Origin: Syntrophobacteria bacterium | GTDB taxonomy: Bacteria; Desulfobacterota; Syntrophobacteria; JARFUL01 | Assembly (NCBI GenBank): GCA_029289015.1 | Contig: JARFUL010000091.1 | Coordinates: 1-13,346 of the forward strand | Direction: 5' to 3' | Length of the DNA: 13,346 nucleotides | Shown here: positions 695-12,278 of the stretch, one piece after another | Numbering within the stretch: the stretch's first letter is position 1 | Layout of the letters: every line of letters starts with the position of its first letter | Translations under genes and position numbers: made by a program | Notes under the pieces: model-generated | What the model was told of the DNA's origin: nothing | The model's database searches: none | What the model saw: only the letters and a program-made list of their open reading frames with translations

Positions 695-1570
695 TCAGCG
701 GGCGATGCCCTGGGCCAAAAAGACCATAAGCCCGGTGGCCTGGGAAAGCCTCAAATAGGCCTTGCAAGCGGCTCTAGCGTCCCCGAATATCCCAAACACG
801 CTCGGGCCGCTTCCGGTCATTGAGACCCAGCCCGCACCCACGTCCCGAACCATCTCCTTCAGGTTGTCTATTTCAGGAAACATGGAGGAGGCCGACTCTT
901 CAAGGTCGTTGGCCCTCTTTAGCCCCCCCTCTTGTGTCCCTCTGCTGAGGAAGGCTCGGAAACTCTTAATTTTCGAGTCGCCGGACTCTTTTGTCAACCG
1001 TAAATTTTGATAAACTCCCGCGGTTGAGAGCTGGGCGTCCGGGCATACCAGCACCAGCCACACCGGCGGCACAAAATCGACCCGGGTGAGCCTCTCCCCC
1101 CTTCCCTCGGCCAGCGCGGGACCACCGAGAAGAAAGAAGGGCACGTCGCACCCGAGCCCTTCGGCCAGGGAGAAGAGCTCCTCTTGCTCCAGGGTGCCGC
1201 CAAGGAGCCTGTTGAGCCCCATCAGCGTGTAGGCCCCGTTGCTCGAACCGCCGCCCAGGCCAGCGGCCACGGGAATCCTCTTGTTCAGGCTGAGGGCCGC
1301 GCCCCTCTTCAGCCCGGTGCGCTCAAAAAAACGGACAGCAGCCATGTGGACCAGGTTGGTCCTGTCCTCAGGCGCGCCCAGTCCCCGGCACCCGAGGGTT
1401 ATGCCCGGGCCGTCAGTGAGCTCTATCTCCAGGGTGTCGTAAAGGGTCACCGGCATCATGAGGGTCCTGATGTCATGATAGCCGTCCTCCCTCTTGGCCA
1501 GCACCTCGAAGTAGAGGTTCACCTTGGCCGGAGGATAGAGCGTGATCCCCTTTCCCGAAACCCCATGCAC
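695..1570 (-). CDS. ispE: 4-diphosphocytidyl-2-C-methyl-D-erythritol kinase (IspE)
   Basis: Phosphorylates CDP-methylerythritol with ATP, the fourth step of the MEP route to isoprenoid precursors; cytosolic GHMP-superfamily kinase. At 291 residues it matches the family. PAKVNLYFEV (14-23) supplies the catalytic Lys16. The ATP-binding glycine loop PVAAGLGGGSS is at 100-110. GCDVPFFL (140-147) supplies the catalytic Asp142. The C-terminal MTGSGPSVFG is at 251-260. One oddity: the family usually has Asp straight after GGGSS, and here residue 111 is Asn. The start is GTG at 1570-1568; the nearby ATG is out of frame, and nothing else precedes the conserved region. It begins 3 nt after the DUF1844 stop codon with only a weak Shine-Dalgarno, so translational coupling is likely. 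tRNA-Gln follows within 14 nt. Confidence 0.96.
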   Translation of the reverse strand: MHGVSGKGITLYPPAKVNLYFEVLAKREDGYHDIRTLMMPVTLYDTLEIELTDGPGITLGCRGLGAPEDRTNLVHMAAVRFFERTGLKRGAALSLNKRIPVAAGLGGGSSNGAYTLMGLNRLLGGTLEQEELFSLAEGLGCDVPFFLLGGPALAEGRGERLTRVDFVPPVWLVLVCPDAQLSTAGVYQNLRLTKESGDSKIKSFRAFLSRGTQEGGLKRANDLEESASSMFPEIDNLKEMVRDVGAGWVSMTGSGPSVFGIFGDARAACKAYLRLSQATGLMVFLAQGIAR

Positions 1571-3772: not shown

Positions 3773-4106
3773 TCACTCGGAGCGACCGTAGAGGGTCTGC
3801 TTGAGGTGGGGGTGGTTGAAGAGGTCTAAAGGGTCGCCCTCGAGCCCGACCCTGCCCTCCTCCATCAGGTATGCGTAGTCCGCGACGGACAGGACCCTCT
3901 GTACGTGCTGCCCCGCTAAAAGCAGGGTGACCTCGCGCAGGACCGGACTTTTCTGAGCGCGCTGCACAGGTGACCGTGTCCTTGGGCGCGAGCCCCAGAA
4001 AGGGGTCGTCCAGGAGGAGCGGACCGCCCCCAAGGAGCGCCGGGGCAAAGAGGGCCAGACACAAAAGGCCCAACAAAGCCCCGGCCCAGGCCCTCGCTCT
4101 GAGCAT
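3773..4106 (-). pseudogene. Remnant of a branched-chain amino acid ABC transporter (LivM start joined to LivF end, frameshifted)
   Basis: Reading from ATG 4106, about 27 residues form a hydrophobic segment after a basic start (MLRARAWAGALLGLLCLALF), as at the N-terminus of a LivM-type permease. It runs straight into LLLDDPFLGLAPK (4019-3981), a LivF Walker B region in which the usual Glu after Asp is Asp. The frame then fails. In the next frame, from about 3943 to the stop at 3773, comes the LivF C-terminus: REVTLLLAGQHVQ, VLSVADYAYLMEEGRVGLEG, DLFNHPHLKQTLYG. The gap between the pieces (about 38 nt) is right for intact LivF, so a one- or two-base indel lies between 3981 and 3943. Walker A, Q-loop and the LSGGQ signature are absent. 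AGGGAG lies 8 nt before ATG, 27 nt behind the hydrolase gene. The LivF match is firm; the LivM origin is likely but rests on hydrophobicity and operon order. Confidence 0.8.
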
Positions 4107-6954: not shown

Positions 6955-7227
6955 GAGGTTTGTATGTGCTGTTGAATGAAGCCTAAGGCCTGAACCCTTA
7001 GAACCTGAAAAGCCGATTTATTTACAATACGGCCCGAACCTCACGGCCGCTTTTTCAACCCGGGCCCTGACGCTTCGGGCAAAACCTCTAGGCAACCAGC
7101 GCGTCGGGGTGTATTTTAGCGCGGGGTGGGATAGCCAACCGCCCGGGGGAAAGGCTCGGCCGGCCTGGGATTGGAGACCGCCGAAACCGTCTGAGTGAAA
7201 AAAGTATCAAGCCCCAAAAGCAACTAT

Positions 7228-8274
7228 ATGATAACAGAAGCACTCACGCAAGAAAAATTTCCCGCAGAGAGCCAAGGAACTTCGGGGACGCGTGGCCCCC
7301 GGATCGGAAAAGTGGCCCTTGAGGGCCCGGTTATCCTCGCGCCCATGGCCGGAATCACCGACAGGCCCTTCAGGAGGCTCTGCCGGGAGATGGGGGCCTC
7401 CCTCGCGGTCACGGAGATGGTGAGCGCACAGGGGCTGGCGCGGGGGCGCGGCGCGAGCCGGGAAATCGCGCGCGGGTTTCTTGGGGAAGAGCCCTGGTGG
7501 GTGCAGCTCTTCGGAGAAGACCCGGGCTCCATGGCCCGGGCCGCGAAGATCGTGGAGGGGATGGGCGCGGGCGGGATCGACATAAACCTCGGCTGCCCGG
7601 TGGCCAAGGTGGTGAAGACCGGCGCGGGCGCGGCCCTGCTCAAAGAGCCGGCACGCTCGGCGGCCCTGGTCCGGGCTGTGCGGCGCGCGGTCAAGGTCCC
7701 TGTCACGGTGAAGATGCGGGCAGGGTGGGACGGGGGCTCCATAAACTGCCTCGAGGTGGCCAAGGCCGCGCAGGAAGAGGGCGCGGACGGGGTAATCCTC
7801 CACCCCAGGACAGCAAGGCAGTTCTTCAAGGGAAGCGCGGACTGGTCGCTGATAAAGGGCCTCAAGGATAATTTAACTGTGCCGGTGATCGGCAACGGGG
7901 ACGTGGCCTCGCCTAAGGACGCGCTGAAAATGCTCGACGAAACCGGGTGCGACGGGGTAATGGTAGCGAGGGCCGCGAGGGGCGCGCCCTGGATATTCAG
8001 GGACATCCTGGTATATTTAGAGAGGGGCGAGGCCCCAAAGCCGCCGGCCCCGAAAGAGAGGCTCCGGGTGATGCTCAAACATCTCGAGCTGCTCGGGGAG
8101 GAGTATGGAGCCAGACTCGCCATGAAAAGGGCCAGGATGCACTTCATGTGGTACGTGAAGGGGCTCAGGGGAGGCGCCCGGTTCAGGAGCAGGATAAGCG
8201 GTGTTTCAGATATGGGGGAGCTTGGGAGGATAGCGGAAGATTTCCTTCTCGGGCTGGAGGAAGCCACCCGATGA
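7228..8274 (+). CDS. dus: tRNA-dihydrouridine synthase (Dus family, DusB-like)
   Basis: Reduces specific uridines in the tRNA D loop to dihydrouridine using FMN and NAD(P)H. From ATG 7228 the protein has 348 residues. The family opening VILAPMAGITDRPFRRL is at 35-51. DINLGCPVAKV (118-128) carries the catalytic Cys123. VTVKMRAGWD (159-168) and ILHPRTARQFF (190-200) line the flavin site, and VPVIGNGDV (218-226) with VMVARAARGAPWIF (244-257) completes the TIM barrel. The tRNA-binding helical domain follows. The start is uncertain: GTG 7195 is also in frame, neither start has a good Shine-Dalgarno, and codons before about residue 24 are A/T-rich unlike the rest, so the true start could be later than ATG 7228. 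Its stop overlaps the next start as ATGA, so it is coupled to the IspH-UbiA gene. Confidence 0.93.
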   Translation: MITEALTQEKFPAESQGTSGTRGPRIGKVALEGPVILAPMAGITDRPFRRLCREMGASLAVTEMVSAQGLARGRGASREIARGFLGEEPWWVQLFGEDPGSMARAAKIVEGMGAGGIDINLGCPVAKVVKTGAGAALLKEPARSAALVRAVRRAVKVPVTVKMRAGWDGGSINCLEVAKAAQEEGADGVILHPRTARQFFKGSADWSLIKGLKDNLTVPVIGNGDVASPKDALKMLDETGCDGVMVARAARGAPWIFRDILVYLERGEAPKPPAPKERLRVMLKHLELLGEEYGARLAMKRARMHFMWYVKGLRGGARFRSRISGVSDMGELGRIAEDFLLGLEEATR

Positions 8275-10010
8275 GGGTAAAGCTCGCCAAGACCGCGGGG
8301 TTCTGCATGGGCGTGCGCAAGGCCGTGGAGAAGGCGCTCACCGCCGCGGAGGAGATGGGGGGCCCGGTCTACACCCACGGGCCCCTGATCCACAACAACC
8401 AGGTGCTCGAGGTGCTGGCCGGGCGGGGAATAATCCCCCTGCCCGAGGACGGGAACACCTCGGACAAGACAGTGGTGATCCGCGCGCACGGCATTCCCCC
8501 CGCGCTCCGAAAGGAGCTCAGGGAGTCCGGGGCCAGGGTGGTGAACGCGACCTGCCCCCGGGTGGCCAAGGTGCAGTCCATAATAAAGCGCTACTCCGGC
8601 AAGGGTTACTTCTGCGTGATCGTGGGGGACGAGAACCACGCGGAGGTGGTGGGGCTCAAGGGGTTCGCGAAAGACGGCGTCGCGGTGGTCTCAGACGTGG
8701 GCGAGCTCCCCGAGCTTCCTGACGGGGAAAAGGTGCTGGTGGTGGCCCAGACCACCCAGTCGGACGACCGTTTCCAGGAGGTGGTGGACCTACTGAGCGG
8801 CAGGCACGCGGATCTCCTGCCCATAAACACCATCTGCGACTCCACCCACAGGAGGCAGTCCGAGATAAGGTCTCTGGCCCGGGAGGTGGACGCGCTGGTG
8901 GTGGTGGGGGGGTTCCACTCCGGCAACACCAGGAGGCTGGCGGAGATAGGAAGGAGCGCGGGTGTTCCCACCTTCCACGTGGAGACCGCGCAGGGGCTCG
9001 ACAGAAATCTCCTGAGCAGGTTCAAGACCATAGGCGTGACCGCGGGAGCCTCCACCCCGAACTGGATGATCAAGAACGTGGTCGAGGAGATCCACAGGAT
9101 CCGCCCCTTTGGCACGGCAAGGCTCCCCTACGTTATGCAGGAGCTCTTCAGGGCCGTGGTGTGGTCCAACCTCTTCGTGGCCCTGGCCGCGGCCTCCCTG
9201 GGCTATGCCGCGCTCTCCCTCATGGGTGCCTCCCACACCCCCTCCCAGTTCTTCATCGTGCTCAACTACGTCTACGCGATGCACCTCCTCAATCGCTACA
9301 CCGACCAGCCCGCGGCAAGGTTCAACGATCCCGCGAGGGTGAAGTTCCTGGAGGAGAACAGGCTCTTGCTCATGGGCTCGGGGATTGTGGCCACTCTCTT
9401 GGCCCTGGGGCTCTCCGCGAGCATGGGGCTCGTGCCTTTCGGGCTCCTTCTCGTCATGTCCTTCTTCGGCATCACCTACGCGATACCCGTGATTCCCAGG
9501 TGGTGGCTCAGGTGGATCAAGCTCCCGGAGATAAAGACCCTCAAGGATATCCCCGGCTCCAAGACCTTCTTCATCGCGGCGGCCTGGGCCCTGGTCACCA
9601 CGGTCATACCCGCGTCGGTCCAGCCGGGGCTCTCCGTCTCCAGGGTGGCCTACGGCTTCCTCGTGATCTTCATCATGGTGCTGATCCGCTCCGCGCTCTT
9701 CGACCTCCTGGACCTCCAGGGCGACCGGCTGGTGGGCAAGGAGACCATCCCCGTGTTCATCGGCAAGCATAACACCAGCACCCTGCTCTGGATGCTCACC
9801 GCTCTGTTGGGGCTGGTCTTTGTCTTGGGCGCGGGCACAGGAATCGCGACCGGGCTCTCCTACGGGCTCCTGGCTGTGGCCGGGTATCTGGCCGGGAACA
9901 TATACATTCACCAAAGGGGGCTCGCGTCGCTGGGCTACCGCACCGAGGCCCTTTTGGAGACGGGGTTTATCTTGGCGGGGCTCATCGCGCTCATCTACAG
10001 GGCGATCTAG
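8271..10010 (+). CDS. ispH: IspH (HMBPP reductase) fused to a UbiA-type prenyltransferase
   Basis: A 579-residue two-domain protein. Residues 1-278 are IspH/LytB, the [4Fe-4S] enzyme that reduces HMBPP to IPP and DMAPP, the last MEP step. Cluster ligands are Cys12 (GFCMGV), Cys95 (NATCPRV) and Cys189 (TICDST). Active-site His41, His73 (RAHGIP) and Glu125 (ENHAEV) are present, as are the TTQ stretch at 161-163 and GASTPNW at 259-265. After a short linker, residues about 290-579 form an integral membrane domain of about eight or nine helices with UbiA motifs: NRYTD (341-345), and DLQGDRLVGKETIPV (481-495) as the second Asp-rich motif. The first motif is unusual, with the next Asp (353) eight residues on. 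The joint is in one uninterrupted frame with no internal stop. Start ATG 8271 overlaps the dus stop by 4 nt; the frame is open further upstream, but that is out-of-phase dus sequence. Prenyl substrate and acceptor are unknown. Confidence 0.93.
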   Translation: MRVKLAKTAGFCMGVRKAVEKALTAAEEMGGPVYTHGPLIHNNQVLEVLAGRGIIPLPEDGNTSDKTVVIRAHGIPPALRKELRESGARVVNATCPRVAKVQSIIKRYSGKGYFCVIVGDENHAEVVGLKGFAKDGVAVVSDVGELPELPDGEKVLVVAQTTQSDDRFQEVVDLLSGRHADLLPINTICDSTHRRQSEIRSLAREVDALVVVGGFHSGNTRRLAEIGRSAGVPTFHVETAQGLDRNLLSRFKTIGVTAGASTPNWMIKNVVEEIHRIRPFGTARLPYVMQELFRAVVWSNLFVALAAASLGYAALSLMGASHTPSQFFIVLNYVYAMHLLNRYTDQPAARFNDPARVKFLEENRLLLMGSGIVATLLALGLSASMGLVPFGLLLVMSFFGITYAIPVIPRWWLRWIKLPEIKTLKDIPGSKTFFIAAAWALVTTVIPASVQPGLSVSRVAYGFLVIFIMVLIRSALFDLLDLQGDRLVGKETIPVFIGKHNTSTLLWMLTALLGLVFVLGAGTGIATGLSYGLLAVAGYLAGNIYIHQRGLASLGYRTEALLETGFILAGLIALIYRAI

Positions 10011-11213: not shown

Positions 11214-12278
11214 ATGGGGTTGAGACCCAACAGGTTTTCTCTTGGGCTTTTGTCCTGCCTGCTTGTCCTTGTGGCCGGGGGATTGCTGCTTTTGTTTTAC
11301 CTGGGCAGTGATCGGGTGGACTCACGAGCCCGGGGACCCGAAGCCGCAAAAGCGCGTCCGGCCGCACCACCTGCGGCAAAATCGACGAAAAACGATTTCA
11401 CACGAGAGTCACGCCGCCTCAAAGAGTCCTGGGATCGTCAGAGCAAGGAGGCTTTACAGGACTATCTTGTGAAGGGGTATCAGAACCCGCAGATCAACGT
11501 TGAAAGCATCCTGACGCGCCATCAACTCCTGGAGTGGCTCTTTCCCGGTCTATTTTCCGAGCTAAAACGCGAAGAGCTGGCCTACACAGTTGAAACCCTC
11601 CGGCTGTTCAATGAGGCCCTGGATCGCCATAACACACAGTTCAAATTGGAATTTAAAGATACTGATACGCAAAAGAAGATCAGCCTCGCTGAGGAGAGTC
11701 TCAAACACAGGTTTACGGTCTATCAGAACAGGTGGGCAGATACTTTAAAAAATCTGGAGGCAAAGAAAGCCAGCCTTTTGGAGCCGGCTTGCGGTTCTGC
11801 CAATGAGTATCGATTTTTCGTCTCTTATGGCATTGCCCGTTTCTTCGATTACAAGGGTTTTGACATCGCAGAAAAGTGTATCGCAAACTCGAGGGCTATG
11901 TTTCCCGGGATTGATTTTGAGGTGGGAAACGTAATGAAGATAGCTGAAAAGGATAAGGCCTTCGATTATTTAATAGTTCAGGACCTCTTTGAGCATCTTT
12001 CCCTGAAAGGGATGGAGAAAGCTCTGGAGGAGGTCTGCCGGGTAACCAAAAAGGGCCTGGTAATCGTATTCTTCAATATGGCCCAAAGACCCGATCACAG
12101 GATCAAGAGGGTCCGCAAGTATCATTGGAATCTACTGAGCGAAACGCTCATAACAAACTTTTTACTAAAAAGAAGCCGTGATGTGCGTGTTGTTAATGTT
12201 CAGAAGTATCTAAAAGAAGAGTTCGGGTTTTCCAATTACTACAATCCCAAAGCCTACACATTTGTAGTCAATTTCTAA
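11214..12278 (+). CDS. Membrane-anchored class I SAM-dependent methyltransferase
   Basis: A 354-residue protein with a short basic N-terminus, one hydrophobic segment (about 10-30) acting as signal anchor, a Pro/Ala/Lys-rich linker (40-60), a helical charged region (60-180) and a C-terminal methyltransferase domain. The SAM-binding motif I is LLEPACGSANEYRFF (188-202). The acidic end of strand 2 is GFDIAE (215-220), with the following motif FEVGN (235-239). The post-motif DYLIVQDLFEHLS is at 251-263, and KKGLVIVFFN (279-288) is the strand after it. Acceptor substrate unknown. If the N-terminus is an N-in anchor the domain would face the periplasm, where SAM is absent, so topology is a real puzzle. 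It has its own promoter, a weak ribosome site and lower GC than the left arm. Repeat copies A and B flank it. Confidence 0.82.
   Translation: MGLRPNRFSLGLLSCLLVLVAGGLLLLFYLGSDRVDSRARGPEAAKARPAAPPAAKSTKNDFTRESRRLKESWDRQSKEALQDYLVKGYQNPQINVESILTRHQLLEWLFPGLFSELKREELAYTVETLRLFNEALDRHNTQFKLEFKDTDTQKKISLAEESLKHRFTVYQNRWADTLKNLEAKKASLLEPACGSANEYRFFVSYGIARFFDYKGFDIAEKCIANSRAMFPGIDFEVGNVMKIAEKDKAFDYLIVQDLFEHLSLKGMEKALEEVCRVTKKGLVIVFFNMAQRPDHRIKRVRKYHWNLLSETLITNFLLKRSRDVRVVNVQKYLKEEFGFSNYYNPKAYTFVVNF

Follow-up and report, generated by a model that had tools for sequence, protein, structure and literature searches.

A fused IspH–UbiA protein of Desulfobacterota: one clade with erosion of the UbiA metal ligands

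The 13,346-nt stretch of DNA analysed here (the window; contig JARFUL010000091.1 of assembly GCA_029289015.1, from a Syntrophobacteria bacterium) carries a gene, ispH-ubiA, in which the coding sequence of IspH, the last enzyme of the methylerythritol phosphate (MEP) pathway, continues in frame into a membrane domain with a predicted UbiA fold. The fusion itself was already published in 2015; what is new is that the fused IspHs group in one clade, with a single fusion and a single later loss in this sample, and that the UbiA metal ligands have eroded across it. As ligands were lost in some lineages that kept the domain, the domain may hold or regulate IspH rather than transfer prenyl groups. 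Judging from the sequences compared, we lean towards holding, and perhaps regulating, IspH at the membrane as the role shared by the fused proteins, in preference to intact prenyl transfer.

The fused protein and its motif register

The gene encodes 579 aa in a single frame (Table 1), and two relatives with 95% and 80% identity (P0001 and P0002, from a set of the best 120 of 5467 matches) have the same length. Single-frame fusion was found in 108 of 109 fetched loci (some species are present twice), the 109th being interrupted by a contig edge. Given the equal length of close relatives and the 108 fused loci, an assembly artefact is unlikely. The initial annotation, made from the letters of the window, had proposed the fusion and named a stop or frame change near codons 280–290 as the finding that would undo it; the relatives do not bear this out, a lost stop at that place was rejected as an explanation, and the fusion stands.

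The IspH part matches Pfam LYTB (residues 3–274, 294.4 bits against a cut-off of 24.5) and TIGR00216 (290 bits against 187.85). It has C12, C95 and C189, the three cluster cysteines annotated initially as intact, together with H41, H73, H123, E125 and T161; the ligand role of the cysteines and the catalytic roles of Glu, His and Thr follow the IspH literature. A search for another ispH, suggested in the initial annotation, found none in the window's genome (338 contigs, 89% complete).

The match of the membrane half to Pfam UbiA (PF01040, residues 332–541) reaches 29.5 bits, below the curated cut-off of 34.2 (32 bits for the domain alone; E 6e-7). In the same class, many relatives score above this cut-off at the equivalent position, and a UbiA fold is predicted for the window protein. 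No PDB chain was matched by sequence with a profile built from ten UbiA parts.

The first motif of the window protein reads N341-RYT-D345-QPA-A349-RF-N352-D-P354-A-R356. This register, with N at 0, D at +4, an acid or its replacement at +8 and N at +11, is the pattern (N, D, D, N) of 31 MqnP-type proteins. According to the AfUbiA structure paper (PMC4106721), the UbiA first-motif consensus is NDXXDXXXD, and two Mg2+ ions are directly bound by N68, D72, D198 and D202, D76 not being a direct ligand. By motif register, as distinct from alignment with AfUbiA itself, N341, D345, D481 and D485 correspond to the four Mg2+ ligands and A349 to D76. The register match thus indicates that the window protein keeps the metal site and that D353 falls at the variable position within NxPxR. 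The initial annotation was right that the next Asp lies eight residues past D345, but D353 is not a motif Asp, and the oddity ascribed to the first motif is for the most part a misreading. The canonical NDxxDxxxD is absent, since Arg follows N and Ala replaces the last acid; for this reason we place the domain in the UbiA fold as a motif variant and do not count it among the canonical UbiA enzymes. The second motif does conform to DxxxD (D481-xxx-D485) and is intact, as annotated, over D478-xx-D481-xxx-D485. Among the 121 nearest proteins (window included), 109 have all four ligands and 12 have three; Y403, R473 and other pocket residues are conserved across the window's clade.

Ligand erosion, decay and loss across the clade

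We aligned 134 fused proteins of at least 500 aa from the window, named contigs and further genomes; L052 and three fused loci shorter than 500 aa (L067, L074 and L082) were left out. One genome, G352, was entered twice (L116 and L134), which leaves 133, and eight further pairs from two collections were identical. Main counts are therefore given after de-duplication at 97% identity (n = 121): all four ligands are kept in 34 proteins, three in 76, two in 3 and one in 8 (38, 83, 4 and 8, respectively, before de-duplication, n = 133). By set, again before de-duplication, all four are kept in 17/76 named loci, 10/29 best phylum matches, 10/16 class proteins and 0/11 proteins of family f34. The commonest substitution is D345 to Gly (58/133); in 47 of these 58 proteins position 349 is Asp, and their site may have been re-arranged instead of lost. 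A complete NxxxDxxxD first motif occurs in 11/108 fused loci. The catalytic residues of IspH do not vary: twelve inspected IspH positions are invariant in the same proteins except for single gaps. As a control we used 31 MqnP-type proteins picked from the best PF01040 matches (20 of the same class and all 11 of f34), a choice that gauges conservation and not presence. N, D and D of the first motif and both D of the second are invariant in 31/31, and erosion is thus a property of the fused domain and not of the UbiA proteins of these genomes generally. D345 was altered at least five times on a quick tree, much of which is weakly resolved.

Decay has gone furthest in two families. All 11 f34 genomes have lost one to three ligands, and the metal site is largely gone in nine; yet the fusion is kept in every one, at a full length of 542–551 aa and with a UbiA fold predicted. 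In all nine of the most decayed members D485 and E559 persist, and position 356 is Lys. In family f6 the fused protein (565 aa) occurs in two genomes of one genus; its first-motif ligands are changed to Q or Y and to S, D481 is changed to E, and E559 is absent from both proteins. In three f6 genomes of other genera IspH stops at 280–283 aa, and one of them, G051, has merely a weaker UbiA match (86 bits). The gene that follows the unfused ispH we take to be glycosyltransferase-like. A futalosine hydrolase gene (TIGR03664, 130.3 bits against 124.7; L118, 2480–3301) adjoins the fused f6 gene and, judged from the look of the sequence alone, the unfused f6 ispH genes as well.

In a careful tree of 52 rows the three f6 stand-alone proteins are sister to the decayed fused protein (support 100/99) and lie within the fused clade, which has a support of 93/93 (98/94 with stand-alone L175 beside it; 96 in the quick tree). 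This nesting implies, for the sampled tree, one fusion and one later shedding, the sister lineage having decayed. In family f3, second IspH copies fall in a far IspH clade; six f3 genomes of one genus (L136–L141) have a stand-alone IspH of this distant clade in addition to the fused protein or to another IspH match.

IspH was found in 372 of 395 genomes drawn from the phylum, and a profile of the UbiA part (E 1e-10) matched 148 of the 395, an undercount because 10 of the 11 f34 genomes escaped the profile. There were 149 matches, 144 of them in frames of at least 500 aa; of the other five, four lie at the end of a contig and the fifth is a separate UbiA protein. Stop codons within the UbiA part were seen in two of the 148 matching genomes (G076, C37:3874–4698, and G126, C18:79203–80006), possibly as further decay or as assembly errors. 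A protein search with the domain alone returned 23 proteins of 162–461 aa; 11 have a Pfam IspH remnant and, of the other 12, seven are labelled IspH at source. No protein that is clearly a stand-alone relative of the UbiA part emerged from this search or from the phylum profile search. The best 80 of 316 named-genome loci come from sulfate-reducer-type genera or orders, Syntrophaceae, Deltaproteobacteria or Proteobacteria.

Membrane attachment weighed against catalysis

The gene product would be a membrane-bound IspH. With its catalytic residues intact and no other IspH found in the genome, the IspH half would work as the last MEP enzyme and make isopentenyl diphosphate (IPP) and dimethylallyl diphosphate (DMAPP) on the cytosolic side of the membrane. 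The C-terminal UbiA fold would have been acquired through one fusion in this phylum. Physical attachment would be common to the lineages, the domain holding IspH at the membrane and perhaps being selected throughout for attachment rather than catalysis; prenyl lipids possibly act on IspH through it. In the window's own clade, where the conserved Tyr is kept along with all four Mg2+ ligands, the domain can probably still bind prenyl diphosphate and may transfer it to an acceptor.

Several points weigh against attachment as the shared role. The metal site is well conserved in the window's clade, as would be expected for a working enzyme, Asp349 might compensate for Gly345, and the location at the membrane is itself predicted. 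In f34 mean identity is 40% in the membrane half against 74% in the IspH half, and this faster-diverging half could persist through inertia. The UbiA part has been wholly lost in f6, so the domain is not indispensable everywhere.

A Rosetta-stone explanation, put forward by Rao et al. (PMC4746011), sees in the domain an active prenyltransferase that IspH supplies with IPP and DMAPP at high local levels, with a specific acceptor in these anaerobes. The pocket conserved in the window's clade (four ligands, Y403, R473 and others) and the predicted fold speak for it, and the Asp349 usual in Gly345 proteins looks as if the site were re-arranged and not dead. However, f34 retains the fusion with its site largely gone in nine of eleven, and no obvious acceptor gene, judged by eye, recurs beside the fusion. 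For quinones, other UbiA-family proteins are present in 11/11 f34 genomes, and the window's genome has a MenA-like gene as well as an MqnP-like one that is in two pieces. UbiA enzymes mostly use prenyl diphosphates longer than the products of IspH, which also counts against it. Outside the window's clade, most fused proteins are missing one or more of the residues whose AfUbiA or EcMenA equivalents are described as needed for full geranyl diphosphate binding or activity (PMC4106721). We consider this explanation possible, if on the unlikely side.

That the UbiA fold is now functionless and merely tolerated is very unlikely. The fast divergence in f34, the complete loss in f6 and the stop codons in two genomes would fit such a passenger; but one stop codon would suffice to remove the domain, and the f34 proteins remain full-length, 144 of the 149 phylum matches lie in long frames, and E559, D485 and Lys356 persist in the most decayed members. 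By analogy with mammalian UBIAD1, which is described as sensing geranylgeranyl diphosphate and controlling HMG-CoA reductase (PMC9314443), the fold might bind long-chain prenyl diphosphates and feed back on IspH; we hold this distinctly unlikely. A broader version, rather unlikely in our estimate, is that the domain was selected for a regulatory or structural role as a covalent bacterial counterpart of UBIAD1–HMG-CoA reductase, a prenyl-lipid-binding fold that keeps IspH at the membrane and tunes it. It would have become a pseudo-prenyltransferase at least twice, in f34 and in f6, and one shedding would have followed in f6. Attachment, transfer and sensing can overlap, and their probabilities need not add up to one.

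The comparison separates two ideas joined in the 2015 paper, the supply of substrate to a prenyltransferase and the placement of IspH at the membrane; the domains that decayed and were still kept suggest that placement, or else regulation, can be sufficient by itself. If true, this would make the MEP pathway subject to control at the membrane, an unusual situation in bacteria. The interpretation given initially, which also had the fusion anchor IspH at the membrane, is on the whole partly supported.

Related systems and genomic context

The window protein belongs to the IspH–UbiA group of Rao et al. (PMC4746011). That paper reports 47 such proteins in sulfate reducers, the function of the UbiA part being open at that time, assigns this part to CDD PT_UbiA_5, mentions a failed expression of the full-length protein, and proposes membrane localisation with supply of prenyl precursors. 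The likeness lies in a UbiA-like domain at the IspH C-terminus, in sulfate-reducing anaerobes and their kin, and in a separate UbiA or MenA elsewhere. The two DXXXD repeats stated there for the UbiA part, though not as a defining criterion, do not fit the window protein, which has A349, and many fused proteins likewise lack the last acid of the first motif. Among the matches listed, at title and abstract level, PMC4746011 alone concerned the fusion, no account of the fusion or its decay after 2015 was found, and none of the titles on an IspH membrane anchor concerned this fusion.

Compared with AfUbiA (4TQ3) and ApUbiA (4OD4, 4OD5), the window protein differs by the Ala at the D76 equivalent and by the IspH fusion, at 13–16% identity. 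The UBIAD1–HMG-CoA reductase pair (8DJK) is non-covalent, eukaryotic and of the mevalonate pathway, and the likeness in feedback role is an analogy; its contact lies between membrane helices (PMC9314443). The IspH–RPS1 fusion also joins IspH to a large C-terminal partner, which is however ribosomal protein S1 with no membrane domain; PRK00087 matches residues 1–276 alone here. MqnP-type menaquinone prenyltransferases share the UbiA superfamily and occur in related genomes, but are stand-alone and, in all 31 sampled, have an invariant metal site.

Table 1. Features of the ispH-ubiA gene and the adjoining dus gene (window positions)
Feature	Positions	Strand	Remarks
ispH-ubiA fused gene	8271..10010	+	one open frame from the ATG (8271) through the stop codon (10010); encodes 579 aa
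IspH (LytB) domain, residues 1–278	8271..9104	+	
UbiA-fold membrane domain (predicted), about residues 292–579	9144..10007	+	
Codon Cys12, [4Fe-4S] ligand (presumed)	8304..8306	+	sequence; C in 133/133 aligned fused proteins
Codon Cys95, [4Fe-4S] ligand (presumed)	8553..8555	+	C in 133/133 aligned fused proteins
Codon Cys189, [4Fe-4S] ligand (presumed)	8835..8837	+	C in 132/133, one gap
First Asp motif, residues 341–356 (N341, D345, A349, N352, P354, R356)	9291..9338	+	alignments
Second Asp motif, residues 478–485 (D478, D481, D485)	9702..9725	+	alignments
Codon Glu559	9945..9947	+	E in 125/134 aligned rows
dus (tRNA dihydrouridine synthase)	7195..8274	+	Pfam Dus 307 bits; ATGA overlap with ispH-ubiA start

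Among 80 named loci, of which many have short flanks, no acceptor pathway gene was recognised by eye beside the fusion, in agreement with the initial annotation of the window's neighbours. The commonest neighbours occur in 34, 31, 30, 29 and 26 of these loci (others in 24, 20, 19, 11 and fewer) and look like housekeeping genes, presumably ParA/ParB-, NYN- and PlsY-like. The MqnP-like and MenA-like genes of the window's genome sit elsewhere, so it is unlikely that the UbiA part is this genome's menaquinone prenyltransferase. The MqnP-like gene is split by an in-frame TAG (L002, 1825–1827; genome contig C49), either a sequencing error or real decay, and is flanked by frames that we take to be UbiD- and UbiX-like.

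The window also holds a gene of another MEP-pathway enzyme, IspE (695–1570, minus strand; TIGR00154, 195.7 bits against 138.7), ∼7 kb from the IspH fusion; it adjoins tRNA-Gln (606–680) and a ribose-phosphate pyrophosphokinase gene clipped by the window edge. A short frame at 3773–4048 (minus strand), without Pfam match, resembles by eye the end of an ABC-transporter ATPase and is a possible gene remnant. The product of 11214–12278 (plus strand) has a hydrophobic N-terminus, judged by eye, and a C-terminal Pfam Methyltransf_25 domain with weak similarity to MenG.
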